From positions 1-40,797 of the forward strand of contig JAUQQR010000010.1 of assembly GCA_030549835.1 (NCBI GenBank): DNA of 40,797 bases, in the 5' to 3' direction. The notes beneath the pieces were generated by a model. That model was not told the origin of the DNA. It made no database searches and saw only the letters and a program-made list of their open reading frames with translations. This document shows, piece after piece, positions 9,943 to 24,803 of this stretch. Within the stretch, counting starts at the first letter, position 1. The number at the start of each line of letters is the position of its first letter. The translations under genes and the position numbers were made by a program. The DNA comes from Thermoproteota archaeon. GTDB taxonomy: Archaea; Thermoproteota; Thermoprotei_A; Sulfolobales; Acidilobaceae.

Positions 9943-10833
9943 ATGTTGGCTTATAGGCTGTCAGCATCTGATATTAATGCGCTCGTAGATCCCAAGAAGC
10001 TTGTTACAGTTGTTGAGAAAGCTCTTATTGAGGCCCCACGCCCCCCTAGGAGAGTAGCTATAGAGTATGAGGGTTCATGGCTTGGAGTTATGCCAGCCTC
10101 AGGGCTAGGCTTTTATAGTGTTAAGATTGTCGGCGTTTACCCCGAGAATCCTAGGAGAAGCCTCCCACTAGTTAGAGGTATCCTAATGCTAATAGATCCT
10201 AAGAGTGGAGAGATTCTATTAGAAGCTGATGCAGGCCCTGCTACAGCCTGGAGGACAGCAGCAGCCACTATAATAGCTTTCAGGATTATGGGGTATGGTG
10301 GTGGAGTGCTGGGAGTTATAGGGGCTGGGGTGCAAGCGGACTACCACATCAGGTTTGTGAGGGATACTCTAGGCTATGATAAGCTTCTCATATACGATAT
10401 TGTTAGTTCTAAGGCTGAAGTATTAGCATCTAAGTATGGTGGTATGGCTGTTAGCTTAGAGGAGATATTGAAGAGATCTGATGCTATAATAGCTGCGACA
10501 ACTAGCAGAGAGCCCGTAGTACATGGGGATATCCTGAGATGGGGGGCTATAGTTGCTAGTATTGGGGCTCCTAAGCCTGTGAGAGAACTTGATGATAGAG
10601 TTGTAGAGAGGAGTAGGTGCCTCCTAGTTGATAGTAGGGAGGGTGTTATGAGTGAGAGTGATGAGTGGGTTAAAGCATCTAAGCTAGTAGAGCTCTCAGA
10701 GGCTCTTAGAGGGGTTAAATGTGATTGGGGCGATGTTAGGGTCTATAAGAGTGTAGGCTATTCACTGCTAGACTTAGCTATAGCAATACACTTATATGAG
10801 ATGGTTAAGAGCTCTCTACCATATGTGATTTAA
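9943..10833 (+). CDS. Ornithine cyclodeaminase / mu-crystallin family NAD-dependent enzyme
   Basis: This cytoplasmic dehydrogenase-like enzyme acts on an amino acid or cyclic imino acid. The substrate-binding part includes the conserved PATAWRTAA segment near residue 100. A Rossmann domain follows with GVIGAGVQADYHIRF near 123, and the usual SIGAPKP and ELDD elements lie near 207-220. The length of 296 residues is slightly short for the family (about 310-330). Characterised archaeal members include an alanine dehydrogenase, so ornithine cyclodeaminase, alanine dehydrogenase and a ketimine reductase are all possible. The gene is alone under its own promoter and ends 29 bases inside the convergent deacetylase gene. 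Confidence 0.8.
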   Translation: MLAYRLSASDINALVDPKKLVTVVEKALIEAPRPPRRVAIEYEGSWLGVMPASGLGFYSVKIVGVYPENPRRSLPLVRGILMLIDPKSGEILLEADAGPATAWRTAAATIIAFRIMGYGGGVLGVIGAGVQADYHIRFVRDTLGYDKLLIYDIVSSKAEVLASKYGGMAVSLEEILKRSDAIIAATTSREPVVHGDILRWGAIVASIGAPKPVRELDDRVVERSRCLLVDSREGVMSESDEWVKASKLVELSEALRGVKCDWGDVRVYKSVGYSLLDLAIAIHLYEMVKSSLPYVI

Positions 10834-15701: not shown

Positions 15702-16784
15702 TTAATCAATTACTCCAGTAATTGAAGGGTATAGCTTAACATCTTCAGGGCTCACATATAGTCTTATGTGTGCTCCTGTATCTATAACTTCTCTAGGTGG
15801 TAAATATGCTAGGATTACATGCCCATTAACTGTAATAACCTTAACCTGGAGGGCTAATCCTATAAAGCTTAATCTCTCAACTCTACCCTCAATTACATTA
15901 ATCTTATCGTCTTCATCAGCCTTCCTAAACGACTCATACCTTATAACTACTAAGACATCTTCTCCAGTACTCAACTTAGCCCCGGTAGATGTTCCATTTA
16001 GTCTTAAGCCGTTAATATTAACTTCATATAACTTATCTGAGATCACACGCTCTACTACACCACTTAGAACATTACTCCTGCCCATGAATGTAGCTATAAA
16101 GAAGTTATATGGGTTATAGTAGATCTCAGCCGGTGTCCCAATCTGTACTATCCTCCCTCTATCCATTATAGCTACCCTATCACTAATATTCATAGCCTCC
16201 TCCTGGTCGTGTGTAACATATATTGTTGTTATCTTAAGCCTCCTCTGTAATGATACTATCTCTTCTCTAACTCTAACTCTAAGCTTAGCATCTAAGTTAC
16301 TTAAAGGCTCATCTAGTAGCAGCACTTTAGGCTCAACTACTATAGCTCTAGCTAATGCAACCCTCTGCTGCTGACCTCCACTAAGCTGTAGTGGGTACCT
16401 ATTCTCTAGCCCCTCAAGACCTAGTAACTCTAGGGCCCACTTAACCCTCCTCTTAATCTCATCCCTACTATACTTTCTAATTTTTAGGCCATACGCGATA
16501 TTATCGTATACAGTCATGTGAGGCCATAGGGCATAATTCTGGAATACCATTGCTGTATTCCTCTCATAAGGCTTCTTATATGTGACATCATATCCGTCTA
16601 TTAATACTCTACCCTCCTCCGGTATCTCGAGACCAGCTATTACTCTAAGTGTTGTTGTTTTACCACAGCCGCTAGGACCTAGTAGCGTAAATATCTCCCC
16701 AGGCTTAACAGTAAAAGATACGCCATCTAGGGCCTTAAATCTACCAAAATACTTACTAACATTATCGAGTATGACTTCAGCCAA
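15702..16784 (-). CDS. ABC transporter ATPase, iron(III)/thiamine/spermidine class
   Basis: This is the cytoplasmic ATPase of an importer. Walker A GPSGCGKTTT is near residue 37, the signature LSGGQQQRVALARA near 134, Walker B VLLLDEP near 155, the D-loop SNLDAKLR, and the switch His in YVTHDQEEA near 190. A TOBE-type domain occupies about residues 285-350. The order binding protein, fused permease, ATPase is that of FbpABC or ThiBPQ systems. It starts two bases after the permease stop. It is the only ATPase of this class in the window, while two permease/binding-protein sets exist, so it may serve both. Confidence 0.9.
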   Translation of the reverse strand: MAEVILDNVSKYFGRFKALDGVSFTVKPGEIFTLLGPSGCGKTTTLRVIAGLEIPEEGRVLIDGYDVTYKKPYERNTAMVFQNYALWPHMTVYDNIAYGLKIRKYSRDEIKRRVKWALELLGLEGLENRYPLQLSGGQQQRVALARAIVVEPKVLLLDEPLSNLDAKLRVRVREEIVSLQRRLKITTIYVTHDQEEAMNISDRVAIMDRGRIVQIGTPAEIYYNPYNFFIATFMGRSNVLSGVVERVISDKLYEVNINGLRLNGTSTGAKLSTGEDVLVVIRYESFRKADEDDKINVIEGRVERLSFIGLALQVKVITVNGHVILAYLPPREVIDTGAHIRLYVSPEDVKLYPSITGVID

Positions 16785-16786
16785 CT

Positions 16787-18595
16787 CTAGATCCCCAGAA
16801 TAGAATACCTAAACTTGAGTATATAGTTTGATGTTATAATAGCTATAAGCTGTACTACTATGATTAAAGTCACTATAGCTGAAGCCTGGTGAATATATGC
16901 GCCCCCACCATAGCCTGCTGTTAGATAATCGTAGATAATGTATGTTATTGGAGCTTGACTCTTATTAAGTGAGCCTACAGTTATACTAGTACTAACTTCG
17001 CTCATACAGTATACAAAGCTTATCATAGAACCAGCTATAATATTTATGCCAATGAGGGGTAAGACTATAGTGAATAAGACTCTAGTCCTAGAAGCTCCAA
17101 GAGTAAATCCAGCCTCCTCTAGGGATCTATGAACTTGCTGTAACCCAGCATAGACAGCTCTAGTAGTAAATGGGCTCTTCCTAATAGCGTAGGCTAAGAT
17201 AAGTAGGAACATTGGATTTATGTAGGGGTCAATTAATGTGTCTTTAAATATGCTACCATATAGTATTAGTAGCCCCATAGCTATAGATAAGCCTGGGATT
17301 GCTAGGGGGCTCATAGCTAATAAGTCTATAGCTGATAACCCCCTCAAGCTAACCCTACTAATAACGTAGGAGCTTACAGTTCCAATAATTATTATAAGTA
17401 CTAAGGCTAAAGTAGAGTATATGAAGCTATTCTTTAGCCCATTAAGAACTCTACTATCAAAGAGCACATTAGAGAAGTGTTCTAGAGTAAAGCCTTCTGG
17501 AATAACTCCCGTCCATGACTTAGAGAATGCATATATTAATACTCCTATCTGAGGTAGCATACTAAATAATACTAGAGGGAATACTATGAGGTATATAGCA
17601 AGTAATGTTGGTAAGCTAGGCTTAGATACTCTAGGCTTCCATCTAACACCTCTAGCTAACATAGCATACTGCTTTAAGCTTATATAATGTTTTATGAGAA
17701 TAAACCAAGAAATAGCTGAGAGTAGTAGTAAGCCAGCTAAGATTACAACTTCAACACTTAACGCCTCAATACTCTGAGATCCAGTTATAGCTCTAACAAT
17801 ACTAATAGACATCATGTTATCAACCTTAAAGGCTAAGGGTGCAGCTAAATCCTCCATAGAGAATATGAATACAAGACCTGAACCAGCAGCTACTCCAGGT
17901 AAACTCAAGGGTAAAGTAATAGTTCTAAAAAGTCTAAAACCCCTAGAACCTATATTCTCAGCTTGCTCTTCAAGGCTAGGATCAATTTGCATCATAGAAG
18001 CTAATGTATTAAGATAAACTATAGGCCAGAACATTAAAGTCTGTGCGAGAATAGTGCCAGCTATATACGTAACCTCTATAGAGTATGGGAGACCAAGACT
18101 TAGCATTAATGATCCTAATATACCCCCATCACCGAAAATCTTATAAGTTACGAATGCGTTAACAAATGGAGTATATAGTAGAGGTATAATTGATATTATC
18201 CTAAGTATACCCTTACCTAGGAAATCATATCTAGCTACAACAAATGCTATACTTATACCAATAATACTCGACAATAATGTAACTATAGATGAAACCAGTA
18301 TAGTATTAGGTATAACTCCTAAATCCTTAAACCTAACTATTATAAGCTTATATTCTCCTCTATCAGATACTATATACCACTCTCCTAGAGGCGGGATACT
18401 AACATAAGGATATCTAATTAAATCCTCAAGGATTCTTAGAGATAGTACTGATAAAGGTTTTAGGAAGAGGGTGGCTAGGGGTATAATGAGGATTAGAGTG
18501 AATAATATTAGTGTAAAAAAAAGTAGCATTACGAGGGGGAGATCTAATGTATACGTTAACCCTCTAATAGCATTACCTAATCTATTATTCTTCAA
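16787..18595 (-). CDS. Fused-dimer ABC permease, FbpB/ThiP-like (system 1)
   Basis: This membrane subunit carries two transport domains in one chain, as in FbpB and ThiP, with about twelve hydrophobic helices. The coupling loops are LEEQAENIGSRGFRLFRTI (first half) and LEEAGFTLGASRTRVLF (second half). An external loop of about 70 residues after the first helix contains IPPLGEWYIVSDRGEYKL, a segment also seen in the second permease at 21627-23405. The 602-residue length fits the archaeal branch. It starts five bases after the interrupted binding-protein gene and is followed at once by the ATPase, so it appears intact and coupled. Iron, thiamine or another small anion or cofactor could be the substrate. 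Confidence 0.88.
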   Translation of the reverse strand: MKNNRLGNAIRGLTYTLDLPLVMLLFFTLILFTLILIIPLATLFLKPLSVLSLRILEDLIRYPYVSIPPLGEWYIVSDRGEYKLIIVRFKDLGVIPNTILVSSIVTLLSSIIGISIAFVVARYDFLGKGILRIISIIPLLYTPFVNAFVTYKIFGDGGILGSLMLSLGLPYSIEVTYIAGTILAQTLMFWPIVYLNTLASMMQIDPSLEEQAENIGSRGFRLFRTITLPLSLPGVAAGSGLVFIFSMEDLAAPLAFKVDNMMSISIVRAITGSQSIEALSVEVVILAGLLLLSAISWFILIKHYISLKQYAMLARGVRWKPRVSKPSLPTLLAIYLIVFPLVLFSMLPQIGVLIYAFSKSWTGVIPEGFTLEHFSNVLFDSRVLNGLKNSFIYSTLALVLIIIIGTVSSYVISRVSLRGLSAIDLLAMSPLAIPGLSIAMGLLILYGSIFKDTLIDPYINPMFLLILAYAIRKSPFTTRAVYAGLQQVHRSLEEAGFTLGASRTRVLFTIVLPLIGINIIAGSMISFVYCMSEVSTSITVGSLNKSQAPITYIIYDYLTAGYGGGAYIHQASAIVTLIIVVQLIAIITSNYILKFRYSILGI

Positions 18596-18600
18596 TCCTA

Positions 18601-20097
18601 CTACCCTATCCTAGCTAGTTCTCCTAATATACTTCTATACCTACTCTCTGCAGCTCTACGCCATTCTCTTATAAATTGATCTTCTAGTGCTGGATTCTCT
18701 AATATAGCTTTTGTGATCCTCTCTGCATCAGATTCGGTAAATTCAACTATGTTACCTGTGACTGGGTCTCTATACTGTAAAGGTTGCCCAAGCCTCCTAC
18801 TATACTCTAAAAGCTTTGCATCTGTTATTTTTCCGGCAAAGTATAAGCTTAATAGTTTCCTCCAAACCTCTTTTAATAAGCCGTCTAAGTCTACTAGTGT
18901 AGCTTTAAAGTATATCTGCATAGCTCTCTCTATTCTTATAGCTCTCTCATCGTTGAACTCTAATCCTTTAACATTGACAATATTATCAAATACTTTCTTA
19001 AGATCAGCTCTCTCCCTCCCTTCTGGGAGCTCAAATGCTTTAGGATTCGATGGTAACCTATTTATCTCTTTTCTAAACCATATCTTCTGGCCTTCTGTTA
19101 AAACCCATGCTATGAAAGCTTTAGAAGCCTCAGGGTTCCTACTTGTTACTAGTAGTGCTATAGGATCCCCATTTATTATTGTCTCACCCTCGGGTATAAT
19201 GTATTCTGTAGCTGGATTAGCTTGCATAGCTGTATAGCCGAAGAAATCTATTGTTATAGCTACAGCTACTCTACCTGCAATAGCATTATCTCTAGCCTCT
19301 GTACTCCCACCTTCTATTAGAGAGTTAGCAGCCATAAGTGTTAAGTTAACCCAGCCTAGCTCCCAGCCATAGGCCTGGAGTATTATCTCATACATTCTAG
19401 TATGGCTCGTGGATCTTGTAGGGTCAGCTATAGATACCATTGGCTTAAGCTCTAATACTAGAGGTTTACCAAGCTCAGGTGATCCTAGATCACTCCACTT
19501 TCTAGGAACTGGTAGTTTATACTTACTTATAACATCATAGTTGACTGTAAAGCCAAAGCTAGCTATACTAGCAGCAACCCAGTATACTCTACCATCACCA
19601 TCAATCCTCTTCATAGGAGATCCAGCTAGACTATCTGGTATTTGAGCTAAAGCTTCACTAACTAATTTCCCCTCTAGAGGTGCTAGTAGATTATTAATGT
19701 ATAAGGTATCGAATAATGTTGGCCCCCCACCCCAAGCTACATCAAAATCTCCTCTCCTCTTTATAGCAGATATCTACGCTATAGGGTCTACAGAGTAGAA
19801 CTCAATATCTACTATATTAAACCTCTTAGCTATATCAGATTTAAGGAACTCTTCTCTAGCAGCAACCTGGATTTCGCCAGGATGCCTTGTTATGACTTTA
19901 AGTTTAATTGGTTGAGCTGGGACTGTAGTCTCTTGAGTCTCAGTTCTCATAGTCTCATATGTAGTTATAGTTGGTGTTGTTATAGTCACAGTCTCTTGGC
20001 CTCTCCTGAGAATAGAGGGGGTCAGGAGTAGAGCTAGTACTATTACTATTAATACTACTAAGCCGGCAATTAATCTTAATCTTGTAGATCCCTGCAC
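18601..20097 (-). pseudogene. ABC substrate-binding protein interrupted by one in-frame TAG (system 1)
   Basis: This is a single reading frame of 498 sense codons broken once, by TAG at 19774-19776. It starts at GTG 20097, six bases after GGTGAT. The N-terminal part has a membrane anchor (LIAGLVVLIVIVLALLL), a Thr-rich linker and the start of the binding domain (IKLKVITRHPG). After the TAG the same frame continues with ISAIKRRGDFDVAWGGGPT, the classic archaeal iron/thiamine-type binding domain, to its own TAG stop at 18601. Aligned with the second binding protein, the TAG falls exactly where that protein has Trp (EFRKEDVSKW against EFYSVDPIA-stop), so one TGG-to-TAG change explains it. It could be a recent nonsense mutation, a readthrough gene or a sequencing error. 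The downstream permease and ATPase are intact. Confidence 0.85.
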
Positions 20098-21626: not shown

Positions 21627-23405
21627 TTAGACTCTACCTAATATAACCCCTATTACTCCAAATGCTCTTAGCCCAGAGATTATAGCTATGCTTATTGTGG
21701 TTATGATAACTGTTAATATTACTGATAAGGCTAGGGTTATTATGAGTAGTGAGCTCATTACGTGTAGTGATCCTGGGTTATAGGTTAAGCTATTGACTAT
21801 TACTGGTACTAGAGGTGCTGGGTGTGAAGCTGATACTCCGTAGCCTCCAGCTAGTACTACTGATACGCTAAATTCTGTAGCTATATGCATTGAGATTATT
21901 ATTGAGGCTACTAGGGCAGATCTTAGTGTCATAGGCGCTATTATAGTCCTAAGAATGTGGTGAATTCTAGCACCCATATTCTCAGCTTGCTCTTCTAAAC
22001 TCATAGGTATACCTCTAATAGATGCTACTAGAGGCCTAGTAGAGTATGTAATCCTCCTAGCAGTATAGGCTAAGACTAGGTATATTGCAGGGTTGAAGAA
22101 AGGATCTAGTAGGTGTATGCCATTAAATAGGCTATGATATAATGAGAAGTAGCCTATACCAACAGCTATCCCAGGGATAACTATGGGGATTATTGTTACT
22201 ATATCAGCTACCGGGGATAATAGAGATTTAACTCTAAAACTAGAGTAGACAGACATATAGGATAATGTTAGAGCCATAATACTAGCTAATATAGTATATA
22301 TAATAGTGTTCAGGGCTGCCCTAAAATAATAACTATTACTTAAAGCTATGAGATAATTACTCAGAGTTAGACTGCTAGGATACTCTCTACCAAACCAACC
22401 GCTAGTTATTGAGTATAAGATAACAATTATTGTAGGCATAGCTGAGAATATAGTTATGAATAATGTTACAGTCGCTAATGGAAACTTAATATGAGATGGA
22501 AGCTCTAAGTATAGCCTCCTAGGAGTTAATACTGGGTAGTAGCTTAACCTAATACTCCTCCACGATACTAGGAATAATACTATGGCTATTAATGCTAATA
22601 GAGTAGTATAGACTATAGCTCTAAGACTAATAGTATAGCCATACTCTGAGATAAAGTCATAGTATGCAATATAAGACATAACATTCCTAGCAGAATTATA
22701 CCTACTAAAAGCTAGAGGCCCGGCTAAATCCTCAGCTGATAATATAAATACTAGAGAAGCTACGGCAATAACTGATGGTTTAGATAGAGGTATTATAATC
22801 TTACTCAGGATATTAACACTTCTACCTCCAAGATTATATGCAGACTCTATATAGCTCCTATCTATAGACTCAATGTAGATAATCATTACTAAGTGTGCTA
22901 TCGGAAAGAAACTTAGAACTTGGTATAGGTAAACTCCTATTATACCCTCAAAAGATAACCTAAAGCCAAAGATTAGATCAATAACCTTATTTATTAAACC
23001 AAAGTCTCTATGGAATAAGTGTATTATAGCATAAGCTGATAAGAGTGGTGTTGGTATTGATGCAATAGCTGGGATTACGTAGCCTATTAGAGTCCTAGTA
23101 TACCCTTTAAGGCTTAAGCTAGTTATAGCAGTTACTAAGCTCAGAGATGTTACCGTAACTGATACTAGCATAGCTAGTATAAGTGTATTAGCTATAGGTC
23201 CGAAGTCATAGCCTGTGAAAGCTATTATTCTATAATCTACTAGATAATATAGCCTATAGATCTCCCCATCTGGGGGAATCTTAATATAGATATAGTTTAA
23301 GCTAGAACCTATATCTCTCAGAGTAATAGCGGCAATATAGGATACTGGAGCGAGTAGGAATATTACTATGTATGCTATTGGTATAATAGCTAGTAGTTTC
23401 AGCAA
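21627..23405 (-). CDS. Fused-dimer ABC permease, FbpB/ThiP-like (system 2)
   Basis: This is a paralogue of the permease at 16787-18595, with the same two-domain plan and about twelve helices. Its coupling loops are ESAYNLGGRSVNILSKIII and LEEQAENMGARIHHILRTI, and the first external loop has IPPDGEIYRLYYLVDYR. At 592 residues it is intact. The only standard start is TTG at 23405, with AAGGAG almost touching it, an unusually tight spacing that may rely on coupling to the binding-protein gene four bases upstream. No ATPase follows, and the gene ends in a convergent gap. It probably borrows the ATPase of system 1 or one encoded elsewhere. Confidence 0.86.
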   Translation of the reverse strand: MLKLLAIIPIAYIVIFLLAPVSYIAAITLRDIGSSLNYIYIKIPPDGEIYRLYYLVDYRIIAFTGYDFGPIANTLILAMLVSVTVTSLSLVTAITSLSLKGYTRTLIGYVIPAIASIPTPLLSAYAIIHLFHRDFGLINKVIDLIFGFRLSFEGIIGVYLYQVLSFFPIAHLVMIIYIESIDRSYIESAYNLGGRSVNILSKIIIPLSKPSVIAVASLVFILSAEDLAGPLAFSRYNSARNVMSYIAYYDFISEYGYTISLRAIVYTTLLALIAIVLFLVSWRSIRLSYYPVLTPRRLYLELPSHIKFPLATVTLFITIFSAMPTIIVILYSITSGWFGREYPSSLTLSNYLIALSNSYYFRAALNTIIYTILASIMALTLSYMSVYSSFRVKSLLSPVADIVTIIPIVIPGIAVGIGYFSLYHSLFNGIHLLDPFFNPAIYLVLAYTARRITYSTRPLVASIRGIPMSLEEQAENMGARIHHILRTIIAPMTLRSALVASIIISMHIATEFSVSVVLAGGYGVSASHPAPLVPVIVNSLTYNPGSLHVMSSLLIITLALSVILTVIITTISIAIISGLRAFGVIGVILGRV

Positions 23406-23409
23406 CTCC

Positions 23410-24759
23410 TTAACCTATCCTTTCAAGCTCTCTAAGTATACTATTATACCTCTCTATTGCAGCTCTCTTAATAGAATCCATGAATTTATCTCTAAACAGT
23501 GTATCTTCAGCAATACTCTTATTAATTTCTATAGCATACTCCCTAGTAAAGTCTCTAGTCTCCACTATTATTCTTAGTGTTAAAGGTTTTCCTAGCTCTC
23601 CCTGTATTCTTAGTAAGTCATCTCTACTAAGTAACCCCCTACTATATAGCTCTAGAGCTTTAACCCATACTTTCTTAAGGAGCGTATTAGTATCTGGGTC
23701 TGCTATTGCAGCCTCAAAGTAGTATATAACTGATCTCTCCCATCTAGAAGCTTCTTCAGGATCATAATTGAATATATTCGATGAAACATCTTCATAAATC
23801 CTACCTAGAAGTGTATCCTCTGGCTTAATGTATGGTAGGTAGTAGAATAATTCTGCTAGAGCTCTCTGACCTTCAGGGCTTAATAGCCATTTTATGAATG
23901 CTAATGCAGCCTCCTTATTCCTAGTATCTTTAGCTAGAGCAACAGGGCTTATATCAGGTAATACCCCATTCTTAGCAGCTATAAACTTAGCATTCCCACC
24001 ACTCTCAATCTCAGCTCTAATACCATAAACTAGGACTGTAGGTGCTAGTCCTGTGATACCTAAGGCTACATCATCTCTAGCTTTTTCAGAGCTCTCTACA
24101 ATGTAAGAATTGGCTCCCATCATAGTTAATATAACCCAGCCTAGCTCCCATCCATACTTCTGTAGTATTAACTGTAATGTTCTAGCAGCTGTAGTACTCT
24201 TACTAGGCTTAGGGAATGATATTAGTGCTTCCCCACTTAGTAGGGGTTTAGAGAATTCAGGCTTAGCAAGGTCATCCCAAGACTCTGGTACCTGTAACCC
24301 ATACTTATCCAGGAACTTAGAGTTAACTGTATAACTAAATACAGTCCTAGATACTGCTATAAAACATACCCTACCATCAGGACCTCTATGAATGTATGCT
24401 CCAATACTCTCAGCAACTCTCAAAACCTCAGCATCATCAATTGGAGCTAAGAGACCTCTCTCACATAAATCCTTATATACAGCATAGCCACCAATAAAAA
24501 TTAAATCACCTAATCCACCAGTAGAATACAACGGCCACTTAGATACATCCTCCTTCCTAAACTCAACATCAACAATACCATAATCTCTAGCAATACTACT
24601 AGCTAGGAACCTCCTCTTAAGAGCATCACCCTCCTCAGGAGCAAGCCTAGTAACAATAAGAAGTTTAACCCCAGGCCTCTATAAGAATAAGTAAGCTAAG
24701 AAAAGCCCCAAAACCAATACTACAACTAAACCAGCCAAAAGAAGCCTCCAAGATACCAT
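23410..24759 (-). pseudogene. ABC substrate-binding protein interrupted by one in-frame TAG (system 2)
   Basis: One frame runs from ATG 24759, preceded by GGGTGG, to TAA at 23410. It is broken only by TAG at 24679-24681. Codons 1-26 encode a signal or anchor helix (SWRLLLAGLVVVLVLGLFLA). Right after the TAG the mature domain begins RPGVKLLIVTRLAPEEG, parallel to IKLKVITRHPG of system 1, and continues through VDVEFRKEDVSKWPLYSTGG to the end without a break. The first standard start after the TAG is TTG 24531, which would lose the export signal and about 50 residues of the domain. So the gene is either dead or read through. The body of more than 400 codons shows no other lesion, which argues for recent loss or continuing expression. 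Confidence 0.83.
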
Positions 24760-24794
24760 AAAACCACCCATATCTAAATCAAGACTAGAACCCC

Positions 24795-24803
24795 TTAAAT
24801 ATT
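24795..24803 (-). promoter_or_regulatory. TATA box of binding-protein operon 2
   Basis: The minus strand reads AATATTTAA, about 36-44 bases before the ATG at 24759. It supports transcription of the part upstream of the TAG. The rest of the gap to 25044 (about 285 bases in all) shows only the CBS gene promoter. Confidence 0.4.

Follow-up and report, generated by a model that had tools for sequence, protein, structure and literature searches.

Two neighbouring genes in this DNA encode paralogous solute-binding proteins of ABC importers and each is interrupted by a single in-frame TAG. The question raised by the locus is whether these are genes in decay, genes in which UAG is read through, or genes whose product has been switched away from export. 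The stretch analysed, referred to here as the window, is 40,797 nucleotides long and represents the entire contig C24 of a metagenome-assembled draft genome (G000; 1.42 Mb in 68 contigs, 96% complete). The relatives of G000 are metagenome-assembled genomes of Sulfolobales, Acidilobaceae and Desulfurococcaceae, and the five other genomes of the same genus are designated G001–G005. Both importers are of the SBP_bac_1/6/8 type and both lie on the minus strand. The relevant features, with the binding-protein genes named SBP1 and SBP2, are as follows.

15702..16784, minus strand: ABC ATPase of the SBP1 operon, intact (Pfam ABC_tran, TOBE_2)
16787..18595, minus strand: fused ABC permease of the SBP1 operon, intact (Pfam BPD_transp_1)
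18601..20097, minus strand: SBP1, a solute-binding protein gene paralogous to SBP2, with one TAG inside (sequence, translation, Pfam)
19774..19776, minus strand: in-frame TAG in SBP1, TGG (Trp) in all near orthologues (orthologue alignment)
21627..23405, minus strand: fused ABC permease of the SBP2 system, intact (Pfam BPD_transp_1 in two stretches; 55% identity over 580 amino acids to G003)
23410..24771, minus strand: SBP2 gene, from the start of the helix to the end of the domain (sequence, translation)
23410..24678, minus strand: SBP2 solute-binding domain, 422 codons, otherwise intact (SBP_bac_6, SBP_bac_1, SBP_bac_8; 69% identity to G003)
24679..24681, minus strand: in-frame TAG between the signal helix and the mature domain of SBP2 (translation; orthologues elsewhere are in frame)
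24682..24771, minus strand: hydrophobic signal or anchor helix of SBP2, MGGFMVSWRLLLAGLVVVLVLGLFLAYLFL (translation; comparable in-frame helices in orthologues)
24795..24803, minus strand: TATA-like box AATATTTAA, about 27 nt upstream of ATG 24771 (read from the sequence)

The arrangement described in the initial annotation was found again at both genes. In SBP2 the TAG separates a helix of 26–30 codons, depending on whether ATG 24759 or ATG 24771 is used, from a 422-codon domain in the same frame, the Pfam matches of which are above cut-off. The second interrupted paralogue is present some 5 kb away. Its TAG is placed within the binding domain at a conserved tryptophan, not at the helix boundary, and a single transition converts TGG to TAG. 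SBP1 is free of stops in all five of the other genomes of the genus, and at neither TAG position is a stop found in any orthologue; both are confined to G000. The ancestral codon at the SBP2 TAG may have been CAG, as codons aligned by eye with G002 and G003 suggest, but the linker is poorly alignable and takes another position in a MAFFT nucleotide alignment. Judged against the intact orthologues, both interruptions are real in the assembly.

The 5′ end of SBP2 was originally assigned to ATG 24759, with a strong G/T bias said to be typical of gene starts in this genome and to confirm the assignment. ATG 24759 stands as an alternative start, but an in-frame ATG lies 12 bases upstream of it, at 24771, and the spacing of the TATA-like box suggests that a leaderless start there is at least as plausible. 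With a G+T content of 0.756 over its first 26 codons (78 nt), the gene is an outlier rather than a typical case: 249 starts average 0.578 and just 0.8% of them attain this value. A helix rich in Val, Leu, Phe and Gly gives such a figure. The bias does not independently prove the SBP2 start, which is better supported by the helix and the TATA-like box.

The sister species are informative with respect to the fate of SBP2. The gene is broken in both of the same-genus genomes that retain it, G002 and G003, and in neither by a TAG. In G003 a 1-nt deletion immediately past the helix (CAGGCTCC to CAGCTCC, with G002 as the reference) puts the domain out of frame with the helix. In G002 the frame runs on from the helix into the first part of the domain, but the gene breaks off after about 170 codons; unrelated sequence follows, and of the permease just the C-terminal portion is found, its N-terminal half being missing. 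Searches of G001, G004 and G005 returned no SBP2-type match, only SBP1-type matches. Outside the genus, 20 orthologues were fetched from other families of the order; in these the SBP2 match is uninterrupted except in G122, which carries a TGA elsewhere in the match, and the helix is in frame in every one for which the 5′ end is present. Taken together, the lesions indicate that SBP2 belongs to an importer that has been lost repeatedly in the genus, by different kinds of lesion. Shared loss, one of three explanations put forward in the initial annotation, is supported.

Two details of these sister loci are recorded here. The G003 deletion (contig C108, L116, approximately 9990–10150) is nearly at the place of the window TAG, with no obvious slippery heptamer by eye. 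At the G002 truncation (contig C68, L140, 5775–6215) an unrelated sequence that resembles an extracellular beta-repeat protein is joined on, either by recombination or through chimeric assembly.

In G000 and G003 alike, SBP2 is damaged at the helix/linker junction, and decay by itself gives no reason for this coincidence. Two independent breaks at this point, each with the domain left intact, could be taken to signify a deliberate loss or switching of export, whereby the domain would be synthesised as a cytosolic protein lacking the helix. This idea, also raised originally, encounters the difficulty that no ATG, GTG or TTG occurs for 49 codons after the SBP2 TAG, and the first such codon is inside the domain; the corresponding distance in SBP1 is 53 codons. 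A whole domain could therefore not be produced by restarting downstream of either TAG, and restart was rejected. Moreover, SBP2 is broken elsewhere in G002 and SBP1 is broken inside its domain. We regard export switching as extremely unlikely.

Could UAG instead be decoded? Programmed readthrough, by near-cognate insertion of perhaps tryptophan, would yield a minority of full-length binding protein, and the position of the SBP1 TAG at a tryptophan, the otherwise intact frames and the constraint still evident on SBP1 are all compatible with it. The decoding machinery that might be expected was not detected. Among 44 tRNA genes of G000 there is no tRNA with a CTA anticodon, although in a genome that is 96% complete one could be missing, and the only tRNA-Trp has the anticodon CCA. 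Matches to PylRS (TIGR02367) were all below cut-off, the best scoring 29 bits against a cut-off of 178. TAG terminates 96 of 260 long frames in a 667 kb sample of the genome, so that UAG is not rare as a terminator. Pyrrolysine decoding, which our locus resembles in having an in-frame TAG, was rejected on these grounds together with a suppressor tRNA, and the SBP family is presumably not one of the methylamine methyltransferases. The sequence 3′ of each TAG folds no better than shuffles (z = 0.32 and 0.51), which led us to discard a readthrough hairpin, and the two TAGs share no context discernible by eye.

Archaeal recoding has been demonstrated only for selenocysteine, for pyrrolysine and for one −1 frameshift, in fucA1 of S. 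solfataricus (PMC8211752), the demonstrated readthrough being confined to the first two. The same review notes that some interrupted S. solfataricus genes are functional according to proteomics, which lends the readthrough idea some encouragement. Against it, no orthologue has a TAG at either site, and other transporters of G000 are damaged in like manner by a single TGA. We consider programmed readthrough to be very unlikely. A broader version, in which both importers are still used through low-level UAG readthrough, for example by a near-cognate tRNA-Trp, and the SBP2 junction is a recoding site in the genus (UAG in G000, a −1 shift in G003), we judge to be exceedingly improbable.

The comparison with fucA1, which encodes an α-l-fucosidase in an organism of the same order, deserves attention because there too an N-terminal part is split from an intact C-terminal frame. 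The programmed −1 frameshift of fucA1 is, however, associated with the slippery heptamer A-AAA-AAT and a putative stem-loop (PMC8211752), whereas the SBP2 break in the window is a stop codon lacking flanking structure and the G003 deletion displays no such heptamer by eye. Another parallel is offered by the pseudogenes of Sulfolobus/Saccharolobus solfataricus and other archaea, in which single stops or frameshifts interrupt a frame that is otherwise intact in a related hyperthermophile, although G000 is a metagenome-assembled relative. Predicted pseudogenes account for up to 8.6% of the coding sequences of S. solfataricus according to van Passel et al. (2007), as quoted in PMC8211752. Given the few demonstrated cases of recoding and this proportion of pseudogenes, ordinary decay is the default explanation.

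The presence of TAG in both genes was initially held to be unlikely as ordinary decay. This is not borne out. About half of the single transitions that create a stop yield TAG, namely 15 of 31 in SBP1 and 13 of 21 in SBP2. The product of these fractions means that both stops would be TAG about three times in ten; finding TAG in both genes, instead of TAA or TGA, is no surprise. The lesions of SBP2 in the sister species are not TAG, and other genes of G000 are broken by TGA, TAA or frameshifts.

These other genes were identified in a survey of the 667 kb sample, representing 47% of G000, in which non-overlapping genes served as queries and stricter filters were then applied. Breakages by TGA, TAA, TAG and frameshifts are present and cluster in dispensable functions. 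An SNF sodium symporter (G000:C68, L052, plus strand) is split by a single in-frame TGA at 2192. In an oligopeptide/peptide ABC transporter (G000:C10:30000-49999, L066, minus strand) there is one TGA in the ATPase (2559), orthologues of which are open elsewhere in the order, and one in a permease gene of that cluster (3773); with one TGA per gene, the pair presents the same pattern as SBP1 and SBP2 with one TAG per gene. A psr-like operon (G000:C7, L076, 8600–11750, minus strand) has a TGA in NrfD, a TAG in the FeS subunit, and TAA, TGA and frameshifts in the molybdopterin subunit, while a subtilase (L054) has a TAG, a TAA and then a frameshift. Interruptions by TAA and TGA, which the initial annotation had named as evidence of a general load of pseudogenes, thus occur in the sampled half of the genome. 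A strict reciprocal scan identified no broken genes in 213 kb of G001 and 87 kb of G003; it indicates direction only because less sequence was covered and because it depends on intact query genes. Many candidates from a codon-usage scan (e.g. L057 3327 and L049 9338) were dismissed as ordinary neighbouring genes.

The survey also bears on whether the lesions are in the organism. A base-call error or a mixture of strains in the metagenome assembly, with the genes intact in the organism, might be entertained, given that the draft comprises 68 contigs and that SBP1 seems to have been damaged recently. Nevertheless, the two interruptions, which lie 5 kb apart in paralogues, and the operon-clustered lesions in other dispensable transporters and enzymes look biological and not random, and the sister species have other lesions of SBP2. 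Such an error is, in our view, unlikely.

We then consider the age of the SBP1 lesion. At sites invariant in the other five species SBP1 of G000 has 13 changes in 250, compared with 18 in 267 for the permease and eight in 194 for the ATPase of its operon; there is no excess relative to these neighbours. Relaxed constraint downstream of a lesion is expected only if the lesion is old. Since constraint on SBP1 is not visibly relaxed, the lesion would be young or, less likely, the frame would still be in use, and the counts do not separate decay from readthrough. The constraint on SBP1 and the open state of both permeases count against decay to this extent; they fit a recent lesion and would equally fit a gene that is still read through.

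The SBP2 lesion of G000 is best explained as a nonsense mutation of recent date, in an importer that is disappearing from the genus. We assign a probability of roughly 0.82 to the reading that SBP2 is a young pseudogene created by a point mutation to TAG, that SBP1 was likewise knocked out, and that translation stops at both codons in the course of ordinary recent decay. A point mutation would have generated the TAG just past the signal helix of the binding protein, and translation of SBP2 ending there would leave only a membrane peptide of 26–30 residues. SBP1 would also have been knocked out, by the change of its TGG to TAG. With both binding proteins lost the importers could not work, and loss of one binding protein may have relaxed selection on the other. 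In the window no ATPase gene was seen beside the SBP2 system, and the only ABC ATPase adjoining either importer is in the SBP1 operon; the two systems probably share it.

On the tests made here, this is ordinary gene decay and not a new reading of the genetic code. The case documents how one ABC importer has been lost repeatedly in a hot-spring archaeal genus, and cautions that two TAGs in neighbouring paralogues can be mistaken for recoding if sister species and the remainder of the genome are left out of account. Were readthrough true, it would be the first archaeal stop-codon readthrough beyond selenocysteine and pyrrolysine, to go by the 2021 review (PMC8211752).

Two further observations were made among the decayed genes of G000. 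A transposase-like frame (G000:C63:8000-27999, L065, 12480–12690, minus strand) contains four TAGs, three of them at tryptophan positions of a relative, and no TAA or TGA among the stops that precede loss of the frame; it is probably a case of decay with G-to-A change, although this does not account for all four being TAG. The decayed psr/DMSO-reductase-like operon of L076 has open relatives in G005 (L118, 15779–19998).
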